Origin: Siphonodentalium dalli
Taxonomy: Eukaryota; Mollusca; Scaphopoda; Gadilida; Siphonodentaliidae
DNA: 64,000 nucleotides
Reading direction: 5' to 3'
Assembly: GCA_032622095.1 (NCBI GenBank)
Contig: CP136066.1
Span: 11,121,784 to 11,185,783, forward strand
Part shown: piece after piece, positions 25,031 through 64,000 of the stretch
Numbering within the stretch: the first letter of the stretch is position 1
Layout: every line of letters starts with the position of its first letter
Program-made: the position numbers and the translations under genes
The notes under the pieces: model-generated
The model's database searches: none
What the model saw: only the letters and a program-made list of their open reading frames with translations
Told to the model about the DNA's origin: nothing

Positions 25031-25070
<40 letters not shown>

Positions 25071-32951: not shown

Positions 32952-34265
32952 TCATTCAATATTCGATAGTTCGCGGTTAACAATTTTAATAAAATCACAT
33001 AGTCGTCGTAGGCTTGTTGGATTTTTCTGATTAAGTAGTTCGCTCATAGTGATTGTATTGGGTCGTTTGTCCGATAGCATTGTTAATAAACGGCGCTTGG
33101 CTTTAGATAAGCTTTCGCACTCGAGAAGGTAGTGGAACTCGTCTCCAATTTTACCGGATTTGCAGAGTTGGCATACACGATGGGATTGTTCGGAGTTTCT
33201 CCAACGGCATATTTCAATCGGGAGTCGATGATTGCTTGTTCTAAATTTACACAAGATGAAACGATTTGTTGTGTTGAGTGTTACAAGATAATTTTCGAAT
33301 GATAAATCGTGCTTGAAAATTCTATATATGCGGCCACGGCTCGAGTTATTTAAATCCTTTTCCCATGATTTTCTAAACTGGGATATTAAACTACATTTCA
33401 TGTATGAGATAAGTTGGTTGCTATCCGGTATCTGTTCCATGTGCCAATAGAGTATTTGTCCGTTGTCTTCTAATATATTATAAACTTTATGCAACCAGGG
33501 GAATCTGTCGTCGTTTATATCGAACATCGAATGTGCTAGTTTGAAAATTAGCCTTTGATATCTACCGCCGTTACTGTTCATAATCTTACTCCAGAACTTC
33601 ATCATTCTTGTATATATCTGTATCTGCAATGGTAGTCTTCCACATTCCCCGTACAACATATAATTAGGGGTTGATGGCCTAAGTTTAAGGACGTGTTTAA
33701 GAAATGTACGGTGGACTTTTTCCAGAACATCATTGTTGCCAAACCCCCATACATCACAACCATATAGCAATATCGGGGTAACATGCAAATCGAACAAGTC
33801 CAGTTGATTTTTAACAGAAAGGCAGTGTTTGCGTGATTTCCCGATTATGGAGTACATGGCACGAGTGGCTTTTTCTACCAATGTTTTTTTCGCCATCGTA
33901 AAGGACCCTGATTTACAAAATATTATGCCAAGGTAATTAAAGTTGTTAACGGTATCAATTTTCTTCCCTTTAAACAGAAACGAGACTTTCTTGGATAGAC
34001 TCGCTTTAGATAAATTTAATATTTTTGTTTTATCCACATTGACTGTTAATTTCCATTGACTACAATATTTTTCAAAAATATCGAGTTGTTGCTGTAACCC
34101 TTTAGGTGTTTCCGCCATAATAACTGTATCGTCGGCGTAAAGAATCATGAATATTTTCAAATGGTAGTTCAATTTGTCACCTATCTCCGCGTCTACAGTT
34201 TTCAGTCCCACTGCGCAGTTTTCAAGGAAAAATTCTTCCAAATCATTCAAATACAAGGAAAACAA
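32952..34265 (-). pseudogene. LINE reverse transcriptase catalytic and C-terminal part (left arm)
   Basis: A 437-codon frame that picks up 19 bp before the previous frame ends. It holds the catalytic YADD (43-46), the downstream YLG motif and LLYGCDVWGF, typical of the thumb region of LINE polymerases. A C-terminal CX2CX9HX4C zinc knuckle follows (C365, C368, H378, C383), then the stop. The true C-terminus is intact; function is lost only through the upstream frameshifts. Confidence 0.9.
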
Positions 34266-35335
34266 CAGTGGGGATAAGTTTCACCTTGGCGAACCCCCGC
34301 ATAACAGGGGAAATAAGCTGATAGCTCACCATTTACCCGGACACATGATTTCACATGGTTATACATGTTGACGATGACCCTAAACAATTTCCCATTGATT
34401 CCACTTTTTACAATTTTGGACCAGAGCCCCTGTCTCCACACGGTATCAAAGGCTTTCTGGAAGTCAACAAACGCACATATTAGTTTCTTTTTCAATTTTC
34501 TACTAATTTCGAACAACAAGTGCAGCACAAATATATTGTCGAGGGTTGAATAATTTTTTCTGAAACCGGTCTGGTTTTCTGAGAGTATTTCATATTTTTC
34601 GACATATTGTGTGAGCCTATTTGACAATATCTTTGTAAATAACTTACCAAAACAACTCAAGATCGTTATAGGCCTATAATTACCTGGGTCACTTAAATTT
34701 CCTTTGTTTTTATAGAGAGGGACAATCGTTCCAGTTACCCAGTCTTCGGGTATGAGACCAGTATCCAGTATGATATTAAATAACTTACAGTATATGCTGA
34801 CAAAGACTTCGGATGAGGCAATGATATACTCATTGACAATGCGGTCGTGGCCGGATGATTTATTGTTTTTCAAAGTATTAATCGACTGTTGTATTTCGAA
34901 CTCGGTAATTGGCATGTTTAGTTCAGGGTTTGCATCAATGCTAACGTGTTCCTTTATAGTTCTCTCTACAATAGGGTCATCATCGTGTCTAATAGCGTTG
35001 ACATCGCGAAAATAATTAGCTATGTCATCTAAAGTAACACCAATACGGTTAGAGTTACTGTCCCTAAGTCTTTTCCAAAATTGTTTTGGATTACTTCGCT
35101 GCATGGACGTCATTTCATAAGTCACAAGATCACGGTGCGATTTAATTGCTTTATCCATCTCTGATTTATAAGAGCGTGCAGCGGATTTCATTTCTCGATC
35201 GGAGCTGGATGACCGCAATCTATGGTTCTCTCTTGTAGCTTTGCGGTATAACTTGCGTGCATTACGACACGCATCATTGAACCATGGTTTTGTCTTGATA
35301 GACGCGCGTGGCCGTGACTTCCTATTATTAAACAC
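34247..35335 (-). pseudogene. LINE reverse transcriptase, N-terminal part (left arm)
   Basis: A 362-codon frame overlapping the endonuclease frame by 8 bp in another phase. A basic linker (residues 1-90) is followed by reverse transcriptase blocks: SSGHDRI (160-166), NYRPITILS (219-227), GFRKNYST (257-264), FVDFQKAFD (289-297, holding the first catalytic Asp) and GVRQGE (347-352). Immediately after GVRQGE the frame shifts and ends. The same break occurs in the right arm, so it predates the separation of the arms. Compared with the right arm this copy retains two codons (Asp-Trp, near residues 198-199). Confidence 0.9.
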
Positions 35336-35998
35336 CTAGTGTCTCCACAGCGGCTGTTGTCATAACGTTGGCAATTGAACGAGTCAGTTCGTTTATCGTG
35401 CCTGGGCTAATATCTTCTGCATTGATCAAATCTAACAAGTGCCCTATTCCGGCAATGTCGTGGTAGTTAATATTCGCGATAAATTCTAAGCGTTTTTCGG
35501 GGTCCCATCTTTTTACACTATTTTCGCAGCTAGGTGATAGATCTTCAAAATTATCGCATGTGCGGGTGTCGTTAAATTTCAAGGTGGCTATAATGCCACA
35601 ATGAATATCAGAAGTCAGTGGATTAAAAGGAAGTACCTGGAAGTCTGATATATAAGGCAGTGCTGCAGCATGGCATATGCTATAGTCGATAAGGGACGCC
35701 GCTCGGCTTGTTACGGCCCCGTATCCATTATCACTACCTGCTCTACCATTCAAGATAACAAATTCATGATGTCGACACAAATCTAGCAGTTGGGTCCCAT
35801 ATACGTTTTTGGATAGATCCTGACTGTGTCTGTGCACAGGCATACATGTTACATTCAGATAAAATAACTGCTCTGAAAACAAAATGGAATCAGAATTGCA
35901 TTGAAACGCTTCGAAATTTTCATCAATAATGTTGATGTCAGTGGAACATGCTGTACGCGCATTGAAGTCGCCTGTTAGGAAAATGTTATTTGTGCGAT
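35328..35998 (-). pseudogene. LINE endonuclease domain fragment (left arm)
   Basis: This is the C-terminal part of an apurinic/apyrimidinic-type endonuclease, which nicks target DNA to prime reverse transcription. The reading frame is open from the 5' truncation, before the first usual start codon. It includes GDFNAR (35955-35972), then in the 184-codon portion LNGR (residues 44-47), IDY (65-67) and SDIH (91-94), matching the order of conserved APE motifs. The first half of the domain is missing. The frame stops at 35328, where a frameshift separates it from the reverse transcriptase frame. Confidence 0.8.
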
Positions 35999-36005
35999 TA
36001 GTCGG

Positions 36006-37060
36006 TATTTAAGTCAGGACTGGTGTGAAAATTTTAGCTACCCCCTCCTGTTTCATAACTCGTACCACGACAGTACAGTCATGGTACCATGCATGCTATG
36101 CCATGCATGCATAATATTACTGTTGAAACTATAATATTTTATATCAATCATGATCTAAGCGTCATGATACCTATCAGATTATAAAGGAATTAATTGTGCT
36201 TGTAACACGTTATATTAACAATATATTAATGCCTATTTACAAACGACAAACGACAACCTATTCTATATATACATTGAAAAAGTTGTTTTGTTAACGATAA
36301 CCTATTAATACCTATTCACAAACAACATTGTGGTTGCTTTATTAGGATTCATAGTCGTTCTAGCCACTGGGCCACGCGCGACATTGTCAATTTTAAGGGT
36401 GGAGGAAAGACCGCGCGGGTCTTGATTTCGCCGAGATATATAGTCCCGCTGCGTATGGGGGCGCCGATCCCCGGAAAGCAACTCACAAACTTGCTCAGCA
36501 ATATACCGACTGGACCACGGGGGGGGGGGACTCCAACAAACGACAACCTATTTTATCTATACATTTAAAAAATTGTTTCATTACTCTATATATTGCCTAT
36601 TTCAAATATCTATATATTACCCTGTTCCAATAATAAACTGTTGACTATGATTATCTAATTAACGATACTATATCCACAGCCACCCCCACCCCACCCGGAT
36701 ATTACCCACTGTCCGCGTTTCATATACCGTAAACAAGCTTTCTATGATATATTCACGGCACATGACATGTTCAAATTATAAACATTTCTTTGCTGACGTT
36801 CGTGTCTATACTCATCATGACATCAATTACTATTCCTTGGTTTGGTATTTAAGTCAGGACTGGTGTGGAAATTTTAGCTGCCCCTCCTGTTTCATAACTC
36901 GTACCACGACAGTATACAGTCATGCGTGGTACCATGTATGCTATGTCATGCATGCATAATATTACTGTTGAAACGATAATATTTGATATCAATCATGATC
37001 TAAGCGTCATGATATCTATCAGATTATAAAGAAATTAATTGTGTTTGCAACACGTTATAG
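36006..37060. repeat. 840-bp tandem duplication: rest of copy 1 and copy 2 (left arm)
   Basis: From 36006 to about 36220 the sequence is the remainder of copy 1 beyond the LINE (GGTATTTAAGTCAGGACTGG onward). Copy 2 (about 36220-37060) is uninterrupted and shows the empty LINE site near 36835-36845. The duplicated DNA contains a poly-G run and a hairpin-prone GC patch (GACCGCGCGGGTC). On the minus strand, TGGTCCAGTCGG followed ~47 bp later by GGATCGGCGCC resembles the A and B boxes of a tRNA-type promoter. Confidence 0.75.
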
Positions 37061-37070
37061 CGAGCCCGAA

Positions 37071-37093
37071 ACGAGACCCCGCAGGGGTCTCGT
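37071..37093. repeat. GC-rich perfect hairpin
   Basis: ACGAGACCCC and GGGGTCTCGT form a 10-bp stem around a 3-base loop. It sits exactly at the outer edge of the 840-bp duplication. Mirrored in the right arm near 59873-59895. Confidence 0.6.
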
Positions 37094-37207
37094 TCGCGAG
37101 CGATAAGCATATACGTGTATGCGAGATCTACCCTATACTATTCGATGTTTTGGCGGGAAATCTATAAATAGACTATATATATAGTATATATGGTAATTTA
37201 TTACTAA

Positions 37208-37390
37208 ATATAGATGTCGGAGACCCACGAACCTACTTCGTGATGTTGTCGGAGACCCACTAACCTACTTCGTGATTTTCTCGGTTTTCCGAAGTTCTAT
37301 GTCGCTGACCAATCAAAATTAACATTACTGATCAATTACCAATCAAAATTAACGTTACTTATTAATTACTATGGTTGACTTTGACTCCAT
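37208..37390 (+). repeat. Two short tandem duplications (~32 bp each)
   Basis: GTCGGAGACCCAC.AACCTACTTCGTGAT occurs twice in a row (about 37214-37277). ACCAATCAAAATTAAC then occurs twice (about 37308-37370). Both pairs recur in the right arm at about 59596-59758. Confidence 0.7.
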
Positions 37391-38054
37391 TTCCATTGCT
37401 CGAGTTCCACCTCGAATTTCATAATAATTAGCATAACTGATTACAGTGGCCATGAGCGAATATAAATGTCTTTTTCAGCAAAGGTGAGTTATACTCCATT
37501 ACATAGTAAATACCATGAACATGAATGGCGAAACATATTGTAAATTTGCTGACGATATGTTTCATAAAATTTATCAAAAACGTCAAAACTACAAAAGACG
37601 AAAAGTGCTGAAATTCGGAAACGGGAATTGTAAAAGTTTTGTCTACTTATTTCATTCAATTATTAAAACTGTTTGCCTCAAAACACAATTCTAGTTTTCA
37701 TCTTGGACATTTGGAGCTTGGCTTTAAATTTCTATCGATGTTTTCGCCTAGAACATTGATGGAGGATTGTCAAAGCTCGAAGCCGACAAACGAAAATTCA
37801 AACTTCAGAGCGATACACTTTCAGCTGTTTCCCTTTAAATTTAAAATGAACGGTTGCCAAGGAAATCCATTGTACTGCTCGTCGTAACATCGGCGAGAAA
37901 AAAAATAGTTCCCAACATTTTAATCATTTGAGTCATTATATTCACAAAATAAAGACAGAATATAAATTATGTGATTATAATTATTGATGACTGGTTGACA
38001 ATTTATGTATTTGTATAACGAGCGAATGAAATTACGAGTTTGTTTTGAATTAGT

Positions 38055-38135
38055 GTCGGCGCACACGATCCCGGTTGTTCCCGGTTTACCCCGCAGCTGG
38101 GTAAAACGGGGACAACCGGGATCGTGTGCGCCGAC
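38055..38135. mobile_element. Hairpin MITE, family H1 copy 1 (left arm)
   Basis: An 81-bp near-perfect hairpin. GTCGGCGCACACGATCCCGG and TTGT pair with ACAA and CCGGGATCGTGTGCGCCGAC, and the inner part (GGTTTACCCC / GGGTAAAAC) also pairs imperfectly. It is non-coding. Its sequence relationship to 38668-38763 shows that this is a small family. Confidence 0.7.
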
Positions 38136-38142
38136 GCTTTGG

Positions 38143-38212
38143 GCCGGTTTTTGTCGGATCCGATTTAACCGGACCGATCAAACTGAGTTTGATTTCATCC
38201 GGAAAAACCGGC
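38143..38212. repeat. Second hairpin abutting the H1 MITE (left arm)
   Basis: GCCGGTTTTTGTCGGAT pairs imperfectly with ATCCGGAAAAACCGGC. The middle (ATCAAACTGAGTTTGAT) is itself a palindrome. Only 7 bp separate it from the preceding hairpin, so the two may be one compound element. Confidence 0.55.
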
Positions 38213-38667
38213 TCGTGACGATGGCAACGCGCGTGTTTTGCTTGTCACATGACCAAAACATCATTCAAAATGTCGGAATAGTTAGCAGCGACCGCTATTC
38301 GAAAATTATGTCTAGAATTCTGATAAATCGACAAGTAACAACTGCTGGTAGACCTATGGGCAGAAAATAGGTGCGCGTATATGGTAATCGCAACAAGAGG
38401 GCGGTAGCTGTGGAAAGGTAGTTTACGCCAATTTACGGCTATTGGCAGTATTCACAGTATTTCCCGTGACCTCAAATTCAATATATTATTATTAATAGTA
38501 TATATTCATTCAGTTTATTATTAATAAATATTAGTCTCTATAAATACATATTAATATAAATCACCACGACTAGCTATAGTAAATGTCTAGATCGGCTGAC
38601 CACACCAGTTGGCTATTTACTACAGTGACCATCTATAGGCATAGCATGCATATGACGGGAGTGAAAA

Positions 38668-38763
38668 TCGGACTCGTGTGCGCTGAACCCCCCGATTTTA
38701 TCGGGCCCGATTTATCCCGCAGCCGGATTTACCGGACACAATCGGGATCGTGTGCGCCGACAC
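38668..38763. mobile_element. Hairpin MITE, family H1 copy 2 (left arm)
   Basis: A diverged relative of the 38055 hairpin. The left end CGGACTCGTGTGCGCTGA pairs with the right end ATCGGGATCGTGTGCGCCGA only as a family-type match, while inner CCCGATTTTATCGGG and CCCGATTTATCCCG segments fold on each other. Mirrored at 58203-58299. Confidence 0.6.
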
Positions 38764-39401
38764 TTAGGCTAGTAGTAATTGTACGCAAAAATAGTCCGGT
38801 GATAACATTACAAAAAAATCTAAATAATGGGTGCTGAATACGTGTACGATAATCGGATCAGTTAATAACAATAGAAAGAACATCCATAGTTGCCCAGACG
38901 GAGTATATGCATAGCACCGAGGTAAGCATTATGTGCCGAGTTACGAATACCAGTTGAACAACATATTTGATACCAAATTTTAGACAGAGAAGTCACAAGG
39001 TCACGTAGTACATGACCGCTTTCGCAGATTGCTGCTTATACGCACTACGTTCATGACTGAACTAAAGGTCACGGTGTTCAAAATCAAAGGTGCAAAGGTT
39101 GCCGACCATTTTCGCACAAAAAATCACAAATGCCTTCGTTTCTCACGATGAACTAGATATAATATTTGATGCAAAATAGCATGACAATATGAAAATCGGT
39201 ATTAAAACAGAAGTTTATCAAACTTTAATCATATTGACATTATTGTTGGAAATTAATATATTCCTAATTTCGCGGCATCTGTATATAATATAGTGTATTC
39301 TGTGTCTGTTGATATTTCACAAATTTTCAGTGCAGCAACAAATTCTGGTTATAGACAACAATGGTCCAGGTGCTACCACGACCGCATAACTTCACAGTGT
39401 A

Positions 39402-39771
39402 CCACGCTGGACAAAACAAGTGTCTATTGGCACCGCGGTGTATTTGCCGTTCGGCCGCTGTGTCAGAGTTAGTAACTGCAGTTCAGCACCGCGGCCGAAC
39501 GGCAAGTACACTGCGGCCAAACGGCAAGTTCACTGCGGCCAAAAGGCAACTACCCTCGCGGTCGAATGGCATGTACACCGTGGTTATATTTCTGGTTTGT
39601 ATTGTCTTTTTTCAGTTTGATGAAAATACACAGTGGCAACTACACCATGCCGAATTGCAATTACACCTCGGCCCAACTGTAGTTAGCTGGTGGAGCCACA
39701 GTGTAGTTGCATTTCGGCCGCGGTGGCAACACTCACCGCAGTTAAGTGGACACTTGTTTTGTCCAGCAGGG
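39402..39771 (+). mobile_element. Tc1/mariner-type MITE, copy 1 (left arm)
   Basis: A ~370-bp element bounded by terminal inverted repeats of the type CCCTGCTGGACAAAACAAG and its complement, flanked by TA on both sides. The interior is built of ~24-bp words (GCGGCCGAACGGCAAGTACA) in both orientations, with a unique TTTCTGGTTTGTAT centre. It has no transposase frame, so it would depend on one supplied elsewhere. The 147-codon open frame across it is repeat read-through. Confidence 0.85.
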
Positions 39772-40004
39772 TACATCTACGGTATAAGTTATATAACCAC
39801 GTAGTGACTCAAGTTCAGTTCTTTAACATGCACACCGATGCATATACATGTACGCAGTTCTTGGAAATTTGTGTCAAAATTTGACAAAAAAAACCTGGGA
39901 AAAAAAAGATATCCCCACCCCTATTTATTATTATCCTATTGACAAGTACAAAAGATGCGCGAAGGGAAGGGCTTCACGAAATTTATGATTTCATGCAATT
40001 CGTA

Positions 40005-40095
40005 TGTAGCAAATTTAGTGGGCGGGGCCAAACTTTAACACTGAGGCCTATGGAAACAATTTGGTACAAGTACATAGTTCCTTCTAACCTAAAGC
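40005..40095 (+). repeat. Dispersed ~90-bp repeat (left arm)
   Basis: GTAGCAAATTTAGTGGGC, GGGGCCAAACTTTAACACTG, AGGCC and TAGTTCCTTCTAACCTAAA recur in order at 42430-42510. Related surrounding words (ACGAGTCATTTTGGGGTCA followed by TGGC..CCAT..TTGGATTT) occur twice, at about 42200 and 42525. This points to a broken-up longer repeat. Confidence 0.55.
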
Positions 40096-40672
40096 ACAAA
40101 AAATCAAGTTTTTCGTATTTCGGCCTACCGGTATGTTGGAATATAATCTAATCGTTGTTGTCAGTTTGGCATACATACATGTAGTTAGACATTATACTAC
40201 ACCAGATTTTGATTTTATGGCCATTTTTCGCGGTGTGGAGAATATTTGCACCTAATGACCTCAGTGAGATTTTCGCACATTTATCACCAAATGTTCTGTA
40301 TCTGGTGTGCTCATTTAAGTGAGGAACCACTTCACATCGATATCTTAATATCTATTGGTGGATAACTGACTATCGAAAAATACTCGATATCCCGAACAGT
40401 TTTAACCTTGTAGCTGCCAACTTGTCGACCACATGGAAATTCATAGCTTCCAGGTACGGGGGGGTGTTATAAAAATCTGCCATTTTATTCAGAAACCCGG
40501 GAAGTTCAGTGTTTAACGAAGCATATAATCTGAAAGAGGATTAACACACATTGTCTATGTCGTTCAGTGCCTGTGCACCGTGGACATTAAAGGCATCTTC
40601 TGCTCGATTAATGATTATTTGTTACCCAAATTTCCACCGATTTTGAGACATTTTCCAAATAAGGTACTAGTA

Positions 40673-41427
40673 CCCTGCTGGACAAAACAAGTGTCCATTG
40701 GCACCGCGGTGTATTTGCCGTTCGGCTGCGGTGTCAGAGTTTGTAACTGCAGTTGGGCACCGTGGCTGAACGGCAAGTACACCGCAGCCGAACAGCAAGT
40801 ACACTGCGGCCGAAAGGCAAGTACACCGCGGCCGAACGGCATGTACACCGTGGTTAGATTTCTGGTTTGTATCGTTTTTTTTCTTCAGTTTAATGGACGT
40901 ACACCGCGGCAACTACACCATGGTTGAACGGCAAGTACCCTGCTTGACAAAACAAGGGTCCACCTAACCGCGGTGCAGTTAGCGTTGCCAACGTGGCTGA
41001 AATGCAACTACACTGCGGCTCCACCGGCTAACTACAGTTGGGCCGCGGTGTACTTGCCGTTCGGCCATGGTGTAATTGCCGCGGTGTACGTTCATTAAAC
41101 TGAAAAAAGACGATACAAACCAGAAATCTAACCATGGTGTACATGCCGTTCGGCTGCGGTGTAGTTGCCTTTCGGCCGCAGTGTACTTGCTGTTGGGCCA
41201 CAGTGTACTTGCCGTTCGGCCGCGGTGCTCAACTGCAGTTACAAACTCTGACACCGCGGCCGAACGGCAAATACACCGCGGTGCCAATGGACACTTGTTT
41301 TGTCCAGCGGGGTACACCGCGGCCCAACTGTAGTTAGCCGGCTGAGCTGCGGTGTAGTTGCATTTCAGCTGCGGTTGCAACGCTAACCGCACCGCGGTTA
41401 AGTGGACACTTGTTTTGTCCAGCAGGG
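40673..41427 (+). mobile_element. Tc1/mariner-type MITE, copy 2, interrupted by copy 3 (left arm)
   Basis: The 5' part is 40673-40935 and the 3' part 41315-41427, with TA at 40671-40672 and 41428-41429. The two halves join colinearly with copy 1 once the internal 40936-41314 block is set aside, so copy 3 inserted into copy 2. Confidence 0.85.
40938..41312 (-). mobile_element. Tc1/mariner-type MITE, copy 3, nested in copy 2 (left arm)
   Basis: A 375-bp element in reverse orientation, flanked by TA at 40936-40937 and 41313-41314. Copy 2 has a single TA at the corresponding place by comparison with copy 1, so this is a TA target-site duplication. That is the signature of Tc1/mariner transposition and confirms the element's true ends. 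The 193-codon open frame over this region is read-through. Confidence 0.85.
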
Positions 41428-41836
41428 TATGTGGTGACCACGAGGCATCCATCATTTTTAATGTTGAACTGCAGACGATACTGATCAATTCCCGAATATT
41501 ACTTCTTTGATTAATGAACGGACATTCCCATAATTGCCGATGGCAAGGACAAATTTCCATCGAAATTTTCCTGGTAAATCAGGGGGGTGGGGTTGGAAAT
41601 ATTTTTCAGGCATGTATGCTGATTGTTTTCTTTCGACCCTTCTTGGGGACCCACCCACCCCGCGTCCAAAATTTGTTCTGTTTTCGGCAGTTTTTGCCGA
41701 CCATTCTTGGACACCCACCCCCTTAACACTAACAGAGATTTGCAGAGCCCCTGGGGGGGGGAATTCACTGTAAACAGCTGTATATGAATTTCTGTGCATA
41801 CTATTAGTCATGGATGTTAACATTGACATGTAAATA

Positions 41837-42195
41837 CCCTGTTGGACAAAAAAAAAGTGTCCATTGGCACCGTAGTGTATTTGCCGTTCAGCCTCTGTGT
41901 CAGAGTTTGTAACTGCAGTTGAGCACCGCGGCTGAACGGCAAGTACACCCAGACACTGCGGCAAAACAGCAAGTTCACTGCAACTTCCCTCGCAGTCTAA
42001 TGGCATGTACACCGTGGTTAGATTTCTGGTTTGTATTGTCTTTTTTCAGTTTGATGAAAGTACACTGTGGTAACTACACCATGCTGAATGGCAATTATAC
42101 CGCTGCCCAACTGTAATTAGCCGGTGGAGCCGCAGTGTAGTTGCATTTCGGCCGCGGTGGCAACGCTAACCGCACCGCAGTTTTGTCCAGCAGGG
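41837..42195 (+). mobile_element. Tc1/mariner-type MITE, copy 4 (left arm)
   Basis: Ends CCCTGTTGGACAAAAAAAAA on the left and TTTTGTCCAGCAGGG on the right, flanked by TA at 41835-41836 and 42196-42197. It is shorter and more diverged than the others, with the ACTTG part of the right terminal repeat lost. Confidence 0.8.
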
Positions 42196-43109
42196 TAGGA
42201 ACGAGTCATTTTGGGGTCATTCGGCCAAAAAAACAATGGCTGCCAGTGGCTATGTTGGATTTCAAAATTCGACCATTAGCATGGGCTACAGGCTACATAT
42301 ATACTGTTTGTCTGATCTGACATCATGAAATTTGTCATTTAGGTTAATATTAACATATAGATGTGTTTTAAGCCAAACTCATTGCAAAAACAGTCAAAAA
42401 GACTTGCCGGAAAAATATTTTTGAGCCGCTGTAGCAAATTTAGTGGGCAGGGCCAAACTTCAACACTGAGGCCTTTTAGGCCCATTTAGTTCCTTCTAAC
42501 CTAAACATTGACATGTAGAAGGGAACGAGTCATTTTGGGGTCAATCGCCAATAAAACATGGCCGCTGGCAGCCATCTTGGATTTTGCTCTTTGCATGACT
42601 AAATTGTTTGGCGCCGGCTACATGTTGTTCCTTTGGTCGGATAATTCTAAAAAATAAGTCATAGCTGTTAAAGGTACTCAATCCGATCAGACCCTCATAA
42701 ATTACTAAATTATATTTCTTTGTCTTCGGGGGTAAACAAAATATTTGATTGGAGTCCAAGGAACCTACGTGTACCCATCAACGCTCAGAATGATCAGATA
42801 TCAATTTTTGAAGTTTTGTTATTTCTATTGTTTCTGGCCCAGAAACACGCCATCAAAAGGATGGTCTCGGTCAAAATTGCGTTATTATTACCACTTGATT
42901 TTAGAGTTATCCATCTTCGTCCGTTTGAATAAGTGTTTCTGGAGCAATTATTAGTACACATCTCGAGAAATAACAAACTTCAAAAATCAATATCTGATCA
43001 CTCTGAGATTTGATGGGCGAGTAATTTAGGGGCGCTTAATCGGACTGAGTACGGTACCTTTAACATTGACATGTGTGGTAGATGTCTAAGAAGAATTTGG
43101 TTCTATATC

Positions 43110-43519
43110 TCATATATATTTTGAAGACCTCTGTTTGTCTGTCTGTCTGTATGTATGTTTGTTTGTCTGTCATTGATACAAATCTACGATTCTCGACCGA
43201 TCGCGACGAAACTTGGTACGTGTGTGTAGTTTGACCAGGCGGTGGACGTTGTTGTATTGGCGAGCCCGTGCGGCGCCCGTGTCGCGCATGCGCAGACGAG
43301 ATCTCGGAAACGGGTGGAGCTATCGACTTGAAATTTGGTACCGGGTATGTGAATGTATCTTGCCCCGGATACGAATTTTATCGGGTCGTCGAGCCCGTGC
43401 GACGCCACCTTCGCGCATGCGCATACCAGATCTCGGAAACAGGTAGAGCTATCGACTTGAAATTTGGTTTTTCAATAGCCCGGATGAATAGCCCGGACAA
43501 CGTCGGGCTCACCGGCTAG
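43110..43519 (+). mobile_element. Helitron-like B element (left arm)
   Basis: Starts TCATATATATTTTGAAGACC, carries a GTCT/GTAT/GTTT microsatellite, then two ~120-bp subrepeats with GCGCATGCGCA, and ends with a GC hairpin plus CTAG (43516-43519). It is the same family as the B elements at 12-25 kb, about 18 kb away. A partial internal duplication lies just before the 3' end (AATAGCCCGGA occurs twice). Confidence 0.8.
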
Positions 43520-44422: not shown

Positions 44423-44454
44423 TATTGATATAATACCACTCATGTTGGTACTAT

Positions 44455-44580
44455 CCACTCTCGGAACCTAAATGTTACCCACGTGACGGCATCACGTGAT
44501 AATTTATTTGGTACTAGGCTATCTCGGAACCCAAGTGTTACCCACATGATGGCATCACGTGATAATTTATTTGGTACTAG
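44455..44580 (+). repeat. 63-bp direct duplication, two copies (left arm only)
   Basis: GGCATCACGTGATAATTTAT, TTGGTACTAG and CTCGGAACC.AA.TGTTACCC occur twice in tandem. The right arm has only one copy (about 52219-52300). Confidence 0.85.
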
Positions 44581-48135: not shown

Positions 48136-48168
48136 AGGTATTGTCAGTGTTTCCTCAGTTCCTCCCAT

Positions 48169-48635: not shown

Positions 48636-48668
48636 ATGGGAGGAACTGAGGAAACACTGACAATACCT

Positions 48669-52218: not shown

Positions 52219-52317
52219 TCGGCTAGTACCAAATAAATTATCACGTGATGCCGTCACGTGGGTAACATTTAGGTTCCGAGAGTGGATAGTACCAACATGA
52301 GTGGTATTATATCAATA

Positions 52318-53197: not shown

Positions 53198-53905
53198 CTA
53201 GCCGGTGAGCCCGACGTTGTCCGGGCTATTCATCCGGGCTATTGAAAAACCAAATTTCAAGTCGATAGCTCTACCTGTTTCCGAGATCTGGTATGCGCAT
53301 GCGCGAAGCTGGCGTCGCACGGGCTCGACGACCCGATAAAATTCGTATCCGGGGCAAGATACACTCACATACCCGGTACCAAATGACTAGCCGATGAGCC
53401 CGACGTTGTCCGGGCTATTCAAAAACCAAATTTAAAGTCGATAGCTCTACCTGTTTCCTTGATCTGGTCTGCGCATGCGCGAAGCTGGCGTCGCACGGGC
53501 TCGGCGACCCGATAAAATTCGTATCCGGGGCAAGATACATTCACATACCAAATTTCAAGTCGATAGCTCCACCCGTTTCCGAGATCTCGTCTGCGCATGC
53601 GCGAAGCTGGTGTCGCACGGGCTCGGCGACCCGATAAAATTCGCATCCGGGGCAAGATACATTCACATAGCAAATTTGAAGTCGATAGCTCCACCCGTTT
53701 CCGAGATCTCGTCTGCGCATGCGCTGCACGGGCGCCGCACGGGCTCGCCAATACGACAACGTTCACCGCCCGGTCAAACTACACACACGTACCAAGTTTC
53801 GTCCCGATCGGTCGAGAATCGTAGATTTGTATCAATGACAGACAGACAGACAAACAAACAAACAAACAAACAAACAAACAGAGGTCTTCAAAATATATAT
53901 GAGAT
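53198..53905 (-). mobile_element. Helitron-like B elements, tandem or nested pair (right arm)
   Basis: About 700 bp where the left arm has 410. Two B-type 3' ends are present (complement CTAG at 53198-53201 and at 53397-53400, each followed by a GC hairpin). A short B fragment (53198-53396) therefore precedes a fuller B (53397-53905) with three GCGCATGCGC subrepeats and an expanded (CAAA)n tract in place of the GTCT-type microsatellite. Confidence 0.75.
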
Positions 53906-54816
53906 ATAGAACCAAATTCTTCTTAGACATCTACCACACATGTCAATGTTAAAGGTACCGTACTCAGTCCGATTAAGCGCCCCTAAATTACTCGCCCATC
54001 AAATCTCAGAGTGATCAGATATTGATTTTTGAAGTTTGTTATTTCTCGAGATGTGTACTAATAATTGCCCCAGAACACTTATTCAAACGGACGAAGATGG
54101 ATAACTCTAAAATCAAGTGGTAATAATAACTCAATTTTGACCGAGACCATCCTTTTGATGGCGTGTTTCTGGGCCAGAAACAATAGAAATAACAAAACTT
54201 CAAAAATTGATATCTGATCATTCTGAGCGTTGATGGGTACATGTAGGTTCCTTGGACTCCAATCAAATATTTTGTTTACCCCCGAAGACAAAGAAATATA
54301 ATTTAGTAATTTATGAGGGTCTGATCGGATTGAGTACCTTTAACAGCTATGACTTATTTTTCAGAATTATCCGACCAAAGGAACAACATGTAGCCGGCGC
54401 CAAACAATTTAGTCATGCAAAGAGCAAAATCCAAGATGGCTGCCAGCGGCCATGTTTTATTGGCGATTGACCCCAAAATGACTCGTTCCCTTCTACATGT
54501 CAATGTTTAGGTTAGAATGAACTAAATGGGCCTAAAAGGCCTCAGTGTTGAAGTTTGGCCCTGCCCACTAAATTTGCTACAGTGGCTCAAAAATATTTTT
54601 CCGGCAAGTCTTTTTGACTGTTTTTGCAATGAGTTTGGCTTAAAACACATCTATATGTTAATATTAACCTAAATGACAAATTTCATGATGTCAGATCAGA
54701 CAAACAGTATATATGTAGCCTGTAGCCCATGCTAATGGATTGAATTTTGAAATCCAACATGGCCACTGGCAGCCATTGTTTTTTTGGCCGAATGACCCCA
54801 AAATGACTCGTTCATA

Positions 54817-55120
54817 CCCTGCTGGACAAAACTGCGGTGCGGTTAGCGTTGCCACCGCGGCCGAAATGCAACTACACTGCGGCTCCAAAGCTAACTACAG
54901 TTGGGCAGCGGTATAATTGCCATTCAGCATGGTGTAGTTGCCACAGTGTACTTTCATCAAACTGAAAAAAGACAATACAAACCAGAAATCTAACCACGGT
55001 GTACATGCCATTAGACTGCGAGGGAAGTTGCAGTGAACTTGCAGTGAACTTGCTGTTTTGCCGCAGTGTCTGGGTGTACTTGCCGTTCAGCCGCGGTGCT
55101 CAACTGCAGTTACAACAGGG
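54817..55120 (-). mobile_element. Tc1/mariner-type MITE, copy 4, deleted end (right arm)
   Basis: Mirror of 41837-42195 but shorter (304 versus 359 bp). The end carrying the GTGTCCATTGGCACC region is lost, leaving only ACAGGGTA before the flank. The opposite end keeps CCCTGCTGGACAAAAC. Confidence 0.75.
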
Positions 55121-55532
55121 TATTTACATGTCAATGTTAACATCCATGACTAATAGTATGCACAGAAATTCATATACAGCTGTTTACAGTGAATTCCCCC
55201 CCCCCCCAGGGCCTCTGCAAATCTCTGTTAGTGTTAAGGGGGTGGGTGTCCAAGAATGGTCGGCAAAAACTGCCGAAAACAGAACAAATTTTGGACGCGG
55301 GGTGGGTGGGTCCCCAAGAAGGGTCGAAAGAAAACAATCAGCATACATGCCTGAAAAATATTTCCAACCCCACCCCCCTGATTTACCAGGAAAATTTCGA
55401 TGGAAATTTGTCCTTGCCATCGGCAATTATGGGAATGTCCGTTCATTAATCAAAGAAGTAATATTCGGGAATTGATCAGTATCGTCTGCAGTTCAACATT
55501 AAAAATGATGGATGCCTCGTGGTCACCACATA

Positions 55533-56286
55533 CCCTGCTGGACAAAACAAGTGTCCACTTAACCGCGGTGCGGTTAGCGTTGCAACCGCAGCTGAAATGC
55601 AACTACACCGCAGCTCAGCCGGCTAACTACAGTTGGGCCGCGGTGTACCCCGCTGGACAAAACAAGTGTCCATTGGCACCGCGGTGTATTTGCCGTTCGG
55701 CCGCGGTGTCAGAGTTTGTAACTGCAGTTGAGCACCGCGGCCGAACGGCAAGTACACTGTGGCCCAACAGCAAGTACACTGCGGCCGAAAGGCAACTACA
55801 CCGCAGCCGAACGGCATGTACACCATGGTTAGATTTCTGGTTTGTATCGTCTTTTTTCAGTTTAATGAACGTACACCGCGGCAATTACACCATGGCCGAA
55901 CGGCAAGTACACCGCGGCCCAACTGTAGTTAGCCGGTGGAGCCGCGGTGTAGTTGCATTTCAGCCACGTTGGCAACGCTAACTGCACCGCGGTTAGGTGG
56001 ACCCTTGTTTTGTCAAGCAGGGTACTTGCCGTTCAACCATGGTGTAGTTGCCGCGGTGTACGTCCATTAAACTGAAGAAAAAAAACGATACAAACCAGAA
56101 ATCTAACCACGGTGTACATGCCGTTCGGCCGCGGTGTACTTGCCTTTCGGCCGCAGTGTACTTGCTGTTCGGCTGCGGTGTACTTGCCGTTCAGCCACGG
56201 TGCCCAACTGCAGTTACAAACTCTGACACCGCAGCCGAACGGAAAATACACCGCGGTGCCAATGGACACTTGTTTTGTCCAGCAGG
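55533..56286 (-). mobile_element. Tc1/mariner-type MITE, copy 2, interrupted (right arm)
   Basis: Mirror of 40673-41427. Flanking TA is at 55531-55532 and near 56287. The nested copy 3 splits it at the same TA. Confidence 0.8.
55648..56022 (+). mobile_element. Tc1/mariner-type MITE, copy 3, nested (right arm)
   Basis: Mirror of 40938-41312, with TA at 55646-55647 and 56023-56024. The shared nested insertion proves that it occurred before the two arms separated. Confidence 0.8.
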
Positions 56287-57194
56287 GTACTAGTACCTTA
56301 TTTGGAAAATGTCTCAAAATCGGTGGAAATTTGGGTAACAAATAATCATTAATCGAGCAGAAGATGCCTTTAATGTCCACGGTGCACAGGCACTGAACGA
56401 CATAGACAATGTGTGTTAATCCTCTTTCAGATTATATGCTTCGTTAAACACTGAACTTCCCGGGTTTCTGAATAAAATGGCAGATTTTTATAACACCCCC
56501 CCCCCCCCCCGTACCTGGAAGCTATGAATTTCCATGCGGTCGACAAGTTGGCAGCTACAAGGTTAAAACTGTTCGGGATATCGAGTATTTTTCGATAGTC
56601 AGTTATCCACCAATAGATATTAAGATATCGATGTGAAGTGGTTCCTCACTTAAATGAGCACACCAGATACAGAACATTTGGTGATAAATGTGCGAAGTCT
56701 CACTGAGGTCATTAGGTGCAAATATTCTCCACACCGCGAAAAATGGCCATAAAATCAAAATCTGGTGTAGTATAATGTCTAACTACATGTATGTATGCCA
56801 AACTGACAACAACGATTAGATTATATTCCAACATACCGGTAGGCCGAAATACGAAAAACTTGATTTTTTGTGCTTTAGGTTAGAAGGAACTATGTACTTG
56901 TACCAAATTGTTTCCATAGGCCTCAGTGTTAAAGTTTGGCCCCGCCCACTAAATTTGCTACATACGAATTGCATGAAATCATAAATTTCGTGAAGCCCTT
57001 CCCTTCGCGCATCTTTTGTACTTGTCAATAGGATAATAATAAATAGGGGTGGGGATATTTTTTTTTTCCAGGTTTTTTTTGTCAAATTTTGACACAACTT
57101 TCCAAGAACTGCGTACATGTATATGCATCGGTGTGCATGTTAAAGAACTGAACTTGAGTCACTACGTGGTTATATAACTTATACCGTAGATGTA

Positions 57195-57564
57195 CCATGC
57201 TGGACAAAACAAGTGTCCACTTAACTGCGGTGAGTGTTGCCACCGCGGCCGAAATGCAACTACACTGTGGCTCCACCAGCTAACTACAGTTGGGCCGAGG
57301 TGTAATTGCAATTCGGCATGGTGTAGTTGCCACGGTGTATTTTCATCAAACTGAAAAAAGACAATACAAACCAGAAATATAACCACGGTGTACATGCCAT
57401 TCGATCGCGAGGGTAGTTGCCTTTTGGCCGCAGTGAACTTGCCGTTTGGCCGCAGTGTACTTGCCGTTCGGCCGCGGTGCTGAACTGCAGTTACTAACTC
57501 TGACACAGCGGCCGAACGACAAATACACCGCGGTGCCAATAGACACTTGTTTTGTCCAGCGTGG
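57195..57564 (-). mobile_element. Tc1/mariner-type MITE, copy 1 (right arm)
   Basis: Mirror of 39402-39771, with TA at 57193-57194 and 57565-57566. A few substitutions distinguish it from the left copy. Confidence 0.8.
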
Positions 57565-58202
57565 TACACTGTAAAGTTATGCGGTCGTGGTAGCACCTGG
57601 ACCATTGTTGTCTATAACCAGAATTTGTTGCTGCACTGAAAATTTGTGAAATATCAACAGACACAGAATACACTATATTATATACAGATGCCGCGAAATT
57701 AGGAATATATTAATTTCCAACAATAATGTCAATATGATTAAAGTTTGATAAACTTCTGTTTTAATACCGATTTTCATATTGTCATGCTATTTTGCATCAA
57801 ATATTATATCTAGTTCATCGTGAGAAACGAAGGCATTTGTGATTTTTTGTGCGAAAATGGTCGGCAACCTTTGCACCTTTGATTTTGAACACCGTGACCT
57901 TTAGTTCAGTCATGAACGTAGTGCGTATAAGCAGCAATCTGCGAAAGCGGTCATGTACTACGTGACCTTGTGACTTCTCTGTCTAAAATTTGGTATCAAA
58001 TATGTTGTTCAACTGGTATTCGTAACTCGGCACATAATGCTTACCTCGGTGCTATGCATATACTCCGTCTGGGCAACTATGGATGTTCTTTCTATTGTTA
58101 TTAACTGATCCGATTATCGTACACGTATTCAGCACCCATTATTTAGATTTTTTTGTAATGTTATCACCGGACTATTTTTGCGTACAATTACTACTAGCCT
58201 AA

Positions 58203-58299
58203 GTGTCGGCGCACACGATCCCGATTGTGTCCGGTAAATCCGGCTGCGGGATAAATCGGGCCCGATAAAATCGGGGGGTTCAGCGCACACGAGTCCGAT
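58203..58299. mobile_element. Hairpin MITE, family H1 copy 2 (right arm)
   Basis: Mirror of 38668-38763, starting GTGTCGGCGCACACGATCCC. Confidence 0.6.
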
Positions 58300-58753
58300 T
58301 TTCACTCCGGTCATATGCATGCTATGCCTATAGATGGTCACTGTAGTAAATAGCCAACTGGTGTGGTCAGCCGATCTAGACATTTACTATAGCTAGTCGT
58401 GGTGATTTATAATAATATGTATTTCTAAAGACTAATATTTATTAATAATAAACTGAATGAATATATAATATTAATAATAATATATTGAATTTGAGGTCAC
58501 GGGAAATACTGTGAATACTGCCAATAGCCGTAAATTGGCGTAAACTACCTTTCCACAGCTACCGCCCTCTTGTTGCGATTACCATATACGGGCACCTATT
58601 TTCTGCCCATAGGTCTACCAGCAGTTGTTACTTGTCGATTTATCAGAATTCTAGACATAATTTTCGAATAGCGGTCGCTGCTAACTATTCCGACATTTTG
58701 AATGATGTTTTGGTCATGTGACAAGCAAAACACGCGCGTTGCCATCGTCACGA

Positions 58754-58911
58754 GCCGGTTTTTCCGGATGAAATCAAACTCAGTTTGATCGGTCCGGTTA
58801 AATCGGATCCGACAAAAACCGGCCCAAAGCGTCGGCGCACACGATCCCGGTTGTCCCCGTTTTACCCAGCTGCGGGGTAAACCGGGAACAACCGGGATCG
58901 TGTGCGCCGAC
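58754..58911. mobile_element. Hairpin MITE, family H1 copy 1, plus abutting hairpin (right arm)
   Basis: Mirror of 38055-38212. The 81-bp hairpin is at 58831-58911 and the CCGGTTTTT hairpin at 58754-58823. The fold appears fully preserved in this arm too. Confidence 0.65.
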
Positions 58912-59872
58912 ACTAATTCAAAACAAACTCGTAATTTCATTCGCTCGTTATACAAATACATAAATTGTCAACCAGTCATCAATAATTATAATCACATAAT
59001 TTATATTCTGTCTTTCTTTTGTGAATATAATGACTCAAATGATTAAAATGTTGGGAACTATTTTTTTTCTCGCCGATGTTACGACGAGCAGTACAATGGA
59101 TTTCCTTGGCAACCGTTCATTTTAAATTTAAAGGGAAACAGCTGAAAGTGTATCGCTCTGAAGTTTGAATTTTCGTTTGTCGGCTTCGAGCTTTGACAAT
59201 CCTCCATCAATGTTCTAGGCGAAAACATCGATAGAAATTTAAAGCCAAGCTCCAAATGTCCAAGATGAAAACTAGAATTGTGTTTTGAGGCAAACAGTTT
59301 TAATAATTGAATGAAATATGTAGACAAAACTTTTACAATTCCCGTTTCCGAATTTCAGCACTTTTCGTCTTTTGTAGTTTTGACGTTTTTGATAAATTTT
59401 ATGAAACATATCGTCAGCAAATTTACAATATGTTTCGCCATTCATGTTCATGGTATTTACTATGTAATGGAGTATAACTCACCTTTGCTGAAAAAGACAT
59501 TTATATTCGCTCATGGCCACTGTAATCAGTTATGCTAATTATTATGAAATTCGAGGTGGAACTCGAGCAATGGAATTGGAGTCAAAGTCAACCATAGTAA
59601 TTAATAAGTAACGTTAATTTTGATTGGTAATTGATCAGTAATGTTAATTTTGATTGGTCAGCGACATAGAACTTCGGAAAACCGAGAAAATCACGAAGTA
59701 GGTTATTGGGTCTCCGACAACATCACGAAGTAGGTTCGTGGGTCTCCGACATCTATATTTAGTAATAAATTACCATATATACTATATATATAGTCTATTT
59801 ATAGATTTCCCGCCAAAACATCGAATAGTATAGGGTAGATCTCGCATACACGTATATGCTTATCGCTCGCGA

Positions 59873-59895
59873 ACGAGACCCCTGCGGGGTCTCGT
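59873..59895. repeat. GC-rich perfect hairpin (right arm)
   Basis: Mirror of the 37071 hairpin (ACGAGACCCC / GGGGTCTCGT), again at the edge of the 840-bp duplication. Confidence 0.6.
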
Positions 59896-59905
59896 TTCGG
59901 GCTCG

Positions 59906-60960
59906 CTATAACGTGTTGCAAACACAATTAATTTCTTTATAATCTGATAGATATCATGACGCTTAGATCATGATTGATATAAAATATTATCGTTTCAACA
60001 GTAATATTATGCATGCATGACATAGCATACATGGTACCATGCATGACTGTATACTGTCGTGGTACGAGTTATGAAACAGGAGGGGCAGCTAAAATTTCCA
60101 CACCAGTCCTGACTTAAATACCAAACCAAGGAATAGTAATTGATGTCATGATGAGTATAGACACGAAAGTCAGCAAAGAAATGTTTATAATTTGAACATG
60201 TCATGTGCCGTGAATATATCATAGAAAGCTTGTTTACGGTATATGAAACGCGGACAGTGGGTAATATCCGGGTGGGGGTGGCTGTGGATATAGTATCGTT
60301 AATTAGATAATCATAGTCAACAGTTTATTATTGGAACAGGGTAATATATAGATATTTGAAATAGGCAATATATAGAGTAATGAAACAATTTTTTAAATGT
60401 ATAGATAAAATAGGTTGTCGTTTGTTGGAGTCCGCCCCCCCCCCCCCGTGGTCCAGTCGGTATATTGGTGAGCAAGTTTGTGAGTTGCTTTCCGGGGATC
60501 GGCGCCCCCATACGCAGCGGGACTATATATCTCGGCGAAATTAAGACCCGCGCGGTCTTTCATCCACCCTTAAAATTGACAATGTCGCGCGTGGCCCAGT
60601 GGCCGGAACGACTATGAACCCTAATAAAGCAAACACAATGTTGTTTGTGAATAGGTATTAATAGGTTATCGTTAACAAAACAACTTTTTCAATGTATATA
60701 TAGAATAGGTTGTCGTTTGTCGTTTGTAAATAGGCATTAATATATTGTTAATATAACGTGTTACAAGCACAATTAATTCCTTTATAATCTGATAGGTATC
60801 ATGACGCTTAGATCATGATTGATATAAAATATTATAGTTTCAACAGTAATATTATGCATGCATGCCATAGCATGCATGGTACCATGACTGTACTGTCGTG
60901 GTACGAGTTATGAAACAGGAGGGGGTAGCTAAAATTTTCACACCAGTCCTGACTTAAATA
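59906..60960. repeat. 840-bp tandem duplication: copy 2 and start of copy 1 (right arm)
   Basis: Copy 2 runs from ATAACGTGTTGCAAACAC at about 59908 to about 60747. Copy 1 starts with ATAACGTGTTACAAGCAC at about 60748 and runs to the LINE insertion near 60961. The A-box-like TGGTCCAGTCGG (60449-60460) and B-box-like GGATCGGCGCC (60496-60506) lie on this strand. A C tract near 60434-60447 differs in length from the left arm. Confidence 0.75.
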
Positions 60961-60967
60961 CCGACTA

Positions 60968-61638
60968 ATCGCACAAATAACATTTTCCTAACAGGCGACT
61001 TCAATGCGCGTACAGCATGTTCCACTGACATCAACATTATTGATGAAAATTTCGAAGCGTTTCAATGCAATTCTGATTCCATTTTGTTTTCAGAGCAGTT
61101 ATTTTATCTGAATGTAACATGTATGCCTGTGCACAGACACAGTCAGGATCTATCCAAAAACGTATATGGGACCCAACTGCTAGATTTGTGTCGACATCAT
61201 GAATTTGTTATCTTGAATGGTAGAGCAGGTAGTGATAATGGATACGGGGCCGTAACAAGCCGAGCGGCGTCCCTTATCGACTATAGCATATGCCATGCTG
61301 CAGCACTGCCTTATATATCAGACTTCCAGGTACTTCCTTTTAATCCACTGACTTCTGATATTCATTGTGGCATTATAGCCACCTTGAAATTTAACGACAC
61401 CCGCACATGCGATAATTTTGAAGATCTATCACCTAGCTGCGAAAATAGTGTAAAAAGATGGGACCCCGAAAAACGCTTAGAATTTATCGCGAATATTAAC
61501 TACCACGACATTGACGGAATAGGGCACTTGTTAGATTTGATCAATGCAGAAGATATTAGCCCAGGCACGATAAACGAACTGACTCGTTCAATTGCCAACG
61601 TTATGACAACAGCCGCTGTGGAGACATTAGGTGTTTAA
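60968..61638 (+). pseudogene. LINE endonuclease domain fragment (right arm)
   Basis: Same content as 35328-35998: GDFNAR at 60994-61011, then LNGR, IDY and SDIH in order, ending in a stop at 61638 just past the start of the next frame. It differs from the left arm by an Ala-to-Asp change near residue 145. The frame is open upstream of its first start-like codon, so the apparent start at 61084 has no meaning. Confidence 0.8.
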
Positions 61639-62713
61639 TAATAGGAAGTCACGGCCACGCGCGTCTATCAAGACAAAACCATGGTTCAATGATGCGTGTC
61701 GTAATGCACGCAAGTTATACCGCAAAGCTACAAGAGAGAACCATAGATTGCGGTCATCCAGCTCCGATCGAGAAATGAAATCCGCTGCACGCTCTTATAA
61801 ATCAGAGATGGATAAAGCAATTAAATCGCACCGTGATCTTGTGACTTATGAAATGACGTCCATGCAGCGAAGTAATCCAAAACAATTTTGGAAAAGACTT
61901 AGGGACAGTAACTCTAACCGTATTGGTGTTACTTTAGATGACATAGCTAATTATTTTCGCGATGTCAACGCTATTAGACACGATGATGACCCTATTGTAG
62001 AGAGAACTATAAAGGAACACGTTAGCATTGATGCAATCCCTGAACTAAACATGCCAATTACCGAGTTCGAAATACAACAGTCGATTAATACTTTGAAAAA
62101 CAATAAATCATCCGGCCACGACCGCATTGTCAATGAGTATATCATTGCCTCATCCGAAGTCTTTGTCAGCATATACTGTAAGTTATTTAATATCATACTG
62201 GATACTGGTCTCATACCCGAGGTAACTGGAACGATTGTCCCTCTCTATAAAAACAAAGGAAATTTAAGTGACCCAGGTAATTATAGGCCTATAACGATCT
62301 TGAGTTGTTTTGGTAAGTTATTTACAAAGATATTGTCAAATAGGCTCACACAATATGTCGAAAAATATGAAATACTCTCAGAAAACCAGACCGGTTTCAG
62401 AAAAAATTATTCAACCCTCGACAATATATTTGTGCTGCACTTGTTGTTCGAAATTAGTAGAAAATTGAAAAAGAAACTAATATGTGCGTTTGTTGACTTC
62501 CAGAAAGCCTTTGATACCGTGTGGAGACAGGGGCTCTGGTCCAAAATTGTAAAAAGTGGAATCAATGGGAAATTGTTTAGGGTCATCGTCAACATGTATA
62601 ACCATGTGAAATCATGTGTCCGGGTAAATGGTGAGCTATCAGCTTATTTCCCCTGTTATGCGGGGGTTCGCCAAGGTGAAACTTATCCCCACTGTTGTTT
62701 TCCTTGTATTTGA
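61631..62713 (+). pseudogene. LINE reverse transcriptase, N-terminal part (right arm)
   Basis: 360 codons with the same reverse transcriptase blocks as the left arm copy, up to GVRQGE and the shared frameshift. It lacks 6 bp relative to the left arm, removing Asp-Trp after LIPE in frame, and has Ile for Asn near residue 136. The small deletion postdates the split of the arms. Confidence 0.9.
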
Positions 62714-64000
62714 ATGATTTGGAAGAATTTTTCCTTGAAAACTGCGCAGTGGGACTGAAAACTGTAGACGCGGAGATAGGTGACAAATTGAACTACCATT
62801 TGAAAATATTCATGATTCTTTACGCCGACGATACAGTTATTATGGCGGAAACACCTAAAGGGTTACAGCAACAACTCGATATTTTTGAAAAATATTGTAG
62901 TCAATGGAAATTAACAGTCAATGTGGATAAAACAAAAATATTAAATTTATCTAAAGCGAGTCTATCCAAGAAAGTCTCGTTTCTGTTTAAAGGGAAGAAA
63001 ATTGATACCGTTAACAACTTTAATTACCTTGGCATAATATTTTGTAAATCAGGGTCCTTTACGATGGCGAAAAAAACATTGGTAGAAAAAGCCACTCGTG
63101 CCATGTACTCCATAATCGGGAAATCACGCAAACACTGCCTTTCTGTTAAAAATCAACTGGACTTGTTCGATTTGCATGTTACCCCGATATTGCTATATGG
63201 TTGTGATGTATGGGGGTTTGGCAACAATGATGTTCTGGAAAAAGTCCACCGTACATTTCTTAAACACGTCCTTAAACTTAGGCCATCAACCCCTAATTAT
63301 ATGTTGTACGGGGAATGTGGAAGACTACCATTGCAGATACAGATATATACAAGAATGATGAAGTTCTGGAGTAAGATTATGAACAGTAACGGCGGTAGAT
63401 ATCAAAGGCTAATTTTCAAACTAGCACATTCGATGTTCGATATAAACGACGACAGATTCCCCTGGTTGCATAAAGTTTATAATATATTAGAAGACAACGG
63501 ACAAATACTCTATTGGCACATGGAACAGATACCGGATAGCAACCAACTTATCTCATACATGAAATGTAGTTTAATATCCCAGTTTAGAAAATCATGGGAA
63601 AAGGATTTAAATAATACGAGCCGTGGCCGCATATATAGAATTTTCAAGCACGATTTATCATTCGAAAATTATCTTGTAACACTCAACACAACAAATCGTT
63701 TCATCTTGTGTAAATTTAGAACAAGCAATCATCGACTCCCGATTGAAATATGCCGTTGGAGAAACTCCGAACAATCCCATCGTGTATGCCAACTCTGCAA
63801 ATCCGGTAAAATTGGAGACGAGTTCCACTACCTTCTCGAGTGCGAAAGCTTATCTAAAGCCAAGCGCCGTTTATTAACAATGCTATCGGACAAACGCCCC
63901 AATACAATCACTATGAGCGAACTACTTAATCAGAAAAATCCAACAAGCCTACGACGACTATGTGATTTTATTAAAATTGTTAACCGCGAACTATCGAATA
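62695..64000 (+). pseudogene. LINE reverse transcriptase catalytic and C-terminal part (right arm, partial)
   Basis: The frame contains YADD and the CX2CX9HX4C zinc knuckle as in the left arm. It runs to the last base of the window, a few bases short of the stop seen in the left arm. Confidence 0.85.

Follow-up and report, generated by a model that had tools for sequence, protein, structure and literature searches.

Layout of the inverted repeat and anatomy of its axis

The window analysed here is a stretch of 64,000 nucleotides from the scaphopod Siphonodentalium dalli (GCA_032622095.1; contig CP136066.1, here C6; positions C6:11121784-11185783). It carries part of a large inverted repeat, whose origin is the subject of this report. 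The assembly searched comprises 2.23 Gb in 9 contigs. Flanks of 130 kb on the left and 110 kb on the right were fetched, together with a separate 8 kb at 175.4-183.4 kb. For convenience, positions without a contig name are window coordinates, which are negative to the left of the window.

In an inverted self-comparison of the window, 32960-41844 matches 64000-55113 at 99.2% identity and 44508-48168 matches 52295-48636 at 99.45%, with the intervening pieces at 96-97%. The spacer of 467 bp described in an earlier note on this DNA is seen in the self-comparison at 48169-48635. The size given there, 31 kb with arms of 15.2 kb, is an effect of the window, which ends inside the right arm. Once the flanks are added, the collinear inverted chain reaches -119555 and 169394. 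The whole inverted repeat is ~289 kb long (C6:11002228-11291177), some nine times the size in the note, with a left arm of ~168 kb (C6:11002228-11169951) and a right arm of ~121 kb (C6:11170419-11291177). As far as -112907 and 163287, the chain spans 161 kb of the left side and 115 kb of the right side; 82 kb of this is aligned, and the remainder is sequence of one arm only. Judged from such lengths and identities, chance is no issue as an origin of the mirror.

1..48168, plus strand: left arm, window part (from inverted alignments; the whole arm runs from -119555, C6:11002228, to 48168)
48169..48635, no strand: spacer, 467 bp (C6:11169952-11170418)
48636..64000, minus strand: right arm, window part (from inverted alignments; the whole arm runs to 169394, C6:11291177)

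The axis sits inside a dispersed repeat that gave at least 48 matches from 40 scored candidates in the genome search. We compared it with seven other fetched copies of that repeat. In these copies the segments follow the order A-B-g-C, whereas the window reads A, C, rc(B), rc(A), where rc denotes the reverse complement. Followed inwards along the right arm, the repeat runs to ...GGACCTGTTTG and then continues on the opposite strand from the end of C. The two orders thus point to a strand switch with a 3-bp overlap and to a loss of B and g in the left copy only.

48168..48169, no strand: deletion scar, left repeat copy without B and g (~332 bp), with a 1-bp overlap (from comparison with the other copies)
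48169..48311, plus strand: segment C, in left-arm orientation
48312..48314, no strand: fold-back junction, 3-bp overlap TTG/CAA between the ends of B and C, loop of ~160 bp
48312..48635, minus strand: segment B, present in the right copy only

Two features of a fold-back are present: two inverted copies flank an unduplicated loop, and the strand switch carries a short inverted overlap. The arrangement fits a fold-back inverted duplication followed by a central asymmetric deletion. A 32-bp tandem duplication and a T>G change are common to the two arms and occur in none of the seven other copies. To judge from the orientation of C, the left arm may be the older copy.

A strand switch of 3 bp is too short for an assembler overlap and must have been present in some molecule. 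A fold-back of a single molecule in the library would put B on both sides and make the arms identical over the read length. Neither holds, since B is one-sided and differences between the arms begin 1 kb from the axis. We therefore reject both an exact fold-back read and a chimera of a single molecule. The earlier note had already argued against an exact fold-back read from the substitutions and indels between the arms.

A genuine duplication could also have arisen by another route, either through exchange between inverted copies of the dispersed repeat or through fusion of sister ends, with the centre rearranged later. The position of the axis inside a dispersed repeat speaks for this route. 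However, after an exchange between repeats one would expect a hybrid repeat and long homology at the switch, where 3 bp is observed, and sister fusion predicts no loop, whereas a loop is observed. We regard either route as very improbable.

Divergence, outer ends and origin of the arms

Mismatches between the arms were counted in aligned pieces of at least 500 bp outside the tandem array and the satellites. All non-satellite pieces pooled give 930 mismatches in 56254 positions. The kilobase adjoining the axis has none (0/999). Up to 20 kb from the axis, with that first kilobase counted in, there are 134 in 20215 (0.66%), and at 37-75 kb there are 638 in 31196 (2.05%). The naive z for inner against outer divergence is 12.6, which is overstated because the local bins are overdispersed (variance/mean ~5 for the inner bins, ~2.8 for the outer ones), which blurs the step. 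As a sign of gene conversion, the difference between the inner 20 kb and the sequence outside is to be read as a rise that is not smooth, between arms of undated age. Polarising the arm differences by other copies of the axis repeat yields only 6 differences in the usable stretch.

The arms also differ by large insertions and deletions. Specific to the left arm are the expansion of an array of ~3-kb units (10.8-25.7 kb), a 28.8-kb block with a long terminal repeat (LTR) element, and ~21 kb of extra 32-bp satellite. A 12.1-kb block is present in the right arm only (103423-115556). The LTR element lies at -99182 to -70438, is flanked by the target-site duplication GGTA, and has 5 differences in 1,169 aligned LTR bases. 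Its exact empty site is found in the right arm near 139.9 kb: AAAAGGTAGTATAG. Arm-specific indels of this kind, including an element with an empty site opposite, indicate that the arms have separate histories, as judged from their alignment. The satellite of 32-bp period occupies ~31 kb of the left arm (-68.5 to -37.9 kb) and ~10 kb of the right arm (127.7-138 kb), and a further 32-bp array lies just beyond the right arm at 172.6-174 kb.

At the outer ends, the homology stops abruptly at AGTAAAACCAATC... (-119555 and 169394), with unrelated sequence beyond. N occurs in 1 of the 51 fetched loci, and none lies in the arms or in their fetched surroundings. The right flank starts with a dispersed repeat of ~0.5 kb, followed by other repeats and by 32-bp satellite. 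The 10.4 kb of left flank and the 4.6 + 8 kb of right flank have no match with each other even at E 0.01, and over these lengths they are not allelic to each other, a result that leaves room for larger one-sided insertions.

For a 10-kb probe taken from the right arm, all matches above 1.2 kb fall at its mirrored place; among the 39 candidates scored, two arm copies are seen and no third. Seven 2-kb probes from outside the arms, three of them mostly transposon, were also searched against the genome. Only one of the seven has a full-length partner at 95% or more. Four gave repeat-family matches only, up to 96%, and another, mostly transposon, gave partial matches of 97-98% at several places. 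Second copies outside the arms did not look general. A megabase-scale mirror about the 48-kb axis is rejected: the probes at C6:10.970 and 11.360 Mb match repeat families only, and the probe at 11.660 Mb has its partner at 12.290 Mb rather than in the left flank. The probe at C6:12.160 Mb, between the members of that pair, also gave repeat-family matches only. The remaining probe reveals a direct duplication that links C6:9170185-9172184 with C6:8861442-8863651 (two pieces, at 92% and 89%); it also has a partial match of 96% on C3. On C9, mirrored matches of equal score to one 2-kb probe at 168249307-168260993 suggest another palindrome.

The earlier note offered two readings, a genuine palindrome partly homogenised by gene conversion or two haplotypes joined head to head. 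The axis anatomy, the closer similarity within 20 kb and the outer ends without N or flank homology favour a genuine duplication, while the divergence of ~2% with insertions also looks allelic. A head-to-head join of haplotypes, in whole or in part, is somewhat unlikely. In favour of a join in whole are the allelic-looking divergence and insertion differences, the finding of just two copies among the 39 candidates scored in the assembly, and another inverted pair nearby on C6. Yet the one-sided B would need a heterozygous 332-bp deletion that by chance lies within ~150 bp of the chimeric point, the 3-bp overlap cannot be an assembler overlap, the flanks past the arm ends should be alleles and share nothing, and a uniform allelic divergence would not yield 0.66% near the axis and 2.05% outside.

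In the complete form of such a join, the left and right arms would be the two different haplotypes, with a chimeric fold-back read as the bridge between them; this is rather unlikely. The partial form would combine a real short palindrome with arms of ~21 kb and an outer mirror of 100-150 kb, produced when the assembler left through the other haplotype. The divergence does step from 0.66% to ~2% where the expanded tandem array lies, at a distance of ~20-21 kb from the axis. However, the bins on both sides of that step are variable, and the outer mirror has neither N nor flank homology at its ends. We consider this hybrid distinctly improbable.

We conclude that the inverted duplication of ~289 kb is probably genuine and the product of a fold-back. 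Several observations weigh against this conclusion. There is no smooth gradient of divergence: 41.8-47.2 kb has 61 mismatches in 5385 (1.13%), and 28.0-41.8 kb, farther out, only 73 in 13831 (0.53%). The step in divergence coincides with the tandem array, a natural spot for an assembler to change haplotype. A divergence of ~2% with many one-arm insertions is expected of two haplotypes in a diverse animal. The 3-bp overlap taken alone is weak evidence. The loop of ~160 bp and the spacer of 467 bp are both below 766 bp, the minimum among the human fold-back spacers in the part of PMC3907307 used here.

The right outer edge falls where the ~0.5-kb dispersed repeat (at least 13 copies) ends, and a locus on C7 matches the initial 3.3 kb of the right flank collinearly at 93-98%; the edge could be an insertion border that hides further homology. 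A search with 10 kb of left flank (39 candidates scored) is a weak negative, in that the matches listed all fall on one 2.4-kb repeat and its own place is not among them. With the seven copies as queries, the fetched right flank gives no match to the portion of the axis repeat that follows C, and the DNA once beyond the axis is therefore not located. Lastly, C6:11660185-11662184 and C6:12290122-12292069, ~0.6 Mb apart, form an inverted pair with 96% identity over the full 2-kb probe, which could point to unpurged haplotype contigs.

A fold-back duplication at this locus would begin with a chromosome break that leaves a 3' end inside the dispersed repeat. The 3' strand would fold back over a loop of ~160 bp and pair through three bases, CAA on TTG. 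Copying outwards would then make the right arm, the end of which would be joined to other DNA. In the simplest order, the product would at first be a nearly perfect palindrome with a 160-bp loop and would later undergo the one-sided central deletion. The loss of ~332 bp, seen in the sequence itself, may be a central asymmetric deletion that stabilised the young palindrome. The arms do show different insertions and satellite lengths, acquired since then. Their inner similarity may come from arm-to-arm conversion near the centre, from recombination of the outer arms with unduplicated chromosomes, or from both.

Mobile elements and coding content of the arms

According to the earlier note, every element of the left arm reappears in mirrored order in the right arm. 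This applies to the RVT_1 element (its "LINE", long interspersed nuclear element), to the 304-bp tandem repeat and to the inverted-repeat element, which resembles a miniature inverted-repeat transposable element (MITE). With the flanks included, many insertions are found in one arm only. The elements in the window are as follows.

32955..36008, minus strand: reverse-transcriptase element (LINE-like), broken frames, left copy (RVT_1 at 7.5e-15 and 2e-20 in two of three frames)
60958..64000, plus strand: reverse-transcriptase element (LINE-like), right copy, continuing beyond the window end
40670..41315, no strand: inverted-repeat (MITE-like) element, left copy (self-inverted match of 85%)
55645..56290, no strand: inverted-repeat (MITE-like) element, right copy (from self-comparison)
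46300..47185, plus strand: 304-bp tandem repeat, left copy
49616..50503, minus strand: 304-bp tandem repeat, right copy
10840..25739, plus strand: tandem array of ~3-kb units, expanded in the left arm (right-arm counterpart ~2.4 kb, 71226-73609)

The 264 kb surveyed contains 70 stop-to-stop open reading frames (ORFs) of at least 170 aa, and 24 frames (one slightly shorter) were scanned against Pfam. Four match reverse transcriptases, and one each matches a Gypsy-type pol, PC4, BIR with RING, and a Mucin-like family. Four others have weak or repeat-driven matches (DUF7129 and others above the cut-off, DUF6830 just above it, two below), and 12 have no match. No host gene is recognised in the 24 frames, a scan that does not reach intron-containing genes and smaller exons. 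Known RNA families gave 0 matches at gathering score in the window. The Mucin-like match (5.6e-08, above the cut-off) belongs to one frame of a tandem-repeat stretch that is open in all three forward frames, at 99092-100933 in the right flank and at -17106 to -16564 in the left; the frame is 614 aa long in the right arm and shorter in the left.

The Gypsy-type pol, a 1286-aa frame, belongs to the LTR element of the left arm. An 835-aa frame of the same element has no Pfam match and, from its position, is presumably gag. Nested in the LTR element is a palindromic mobile element of 17,759 bp (-96031 to -78273; C6:11025752-11043510). It consists of 8,381-bp inverted repeats with 1 mismatch and a 997-bp spacer, has the ends TGCTGCATAGACG...CGTCTATGCAGCA (in short form TGCTGCATA..TATGCAGCA), and is flanked by the 6-bp target duplication TGTATG. 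A search with its inner 4.7 kb gives 23 more full-length matches at 95-100%, spread over all nine contigs and each accompanied by an inverted partner of its own. Another match covers 3.9 kb, and two are rearranged.

The predicted ends were fetched for four other copies of the palindromic element. Those on C4 and C5 have the same ends, with 6-bp duplications CTGATG and GCATAA. The copy on C7 is alike in the first nine end bases and changed after them, with the duplication CCCGTC, and the copy on C1 lacks such an end where one was predicted. Each arm of the element contains both the PC4 frame (9.2e-13) and the BIR and RING frame (2.6e-17) of the Pfam scan. The closest PDB chains to the latter are IAP proteins, and its domain arrangement is IAP-like by sequence. 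No integrase, transposase or polymerase is found in six scanned frames, the smaller ORFs being mostly outside that scan. Mavericks, as described in the part of PMC8097293 used here, have 6-bp duplications and AGT- or AG-type ends. The palindromic element resembles them in its 6-bp duplication and differs in lacking ends of the AGT or AG type. A thin literature search found no such palindromic element.

What we recognise in the arms is transposons and satellites, and we propose no function; the structure is explicable without one. We put forward, tentatively and with somewhat less than even confidence, that the locus keeps a two-step palindrome birth at base resolution together with homogenisation of the inner 20 kb while the outer arms diverge, with no recognised gene to select for a palindrome. 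No claim to be the first is made among animal cases, for which our literature search was limited. If the duplication is genuine, it is a natural large palindrome of which both the formation and the early stabilisation are readable from sequence, and at which the change of arm similarity away from the centre can be measured. Should it prove an artefact, fold-back joins of ~0.3 Mb enter chromosome-scale assemblies of repeat-rich animals and would distort duplication counts.

Comparison with known systems

The locus is most readily compared with human fold-back inverted duplications. In the portion of Hermetz et al. 2014 (PMC3907307) consulted, 13 of 21 sequenced junctions have an inverted overlap of 2-8 bp, and the unduplicated spacers of the 21 range from 766 to 70,466 bp. 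The S. dalli locus shares with these cases two inverted copies, an unduplicated spacer and an inverted overlap of a few bases. It differs in that the human duplications described there adjoin terminal deletions, are megabase-sized and come from patients, whereas this one is interstitial, ~0.29 Mb long and diverged by up to 2%. Fold-back priming at breaks is supported in yeast, according to the relevant part of PMC10622511.

The one-sided central deletion is common to the S. dalli axis and to the palindromic junctions covered in the cited part of a review (PMC8701086). Those junctions mostly carry asymmetric deletions, which are believed to be stabilising: 93% of 118 rearrangements analysed are deletions, and a palindrome that lost its symmetry became 25 times more stable. 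The cases reported there are transgene palindromes in mice and cell lines, whereas the S. dalli event is inferred from a single sequence.

Sex-chromosome palindromes are likewise inverted repeats of tens of kilobases around a spacer. For human P8, the passages used from PMC6790999 give arms of 38.0 and 37.4 kb and a spacer of 3.4 kb, and they document homogenisation of arms in mammalian sex-chromosome palindromes; for human Y palindromes, PMC3723533 gives, in the part cited, an arm similarity above 99.9%. The arms of these palindromes often contain genes. In S. dalli the arms are 98-99.5% alike and their recognised content includes no host gene.

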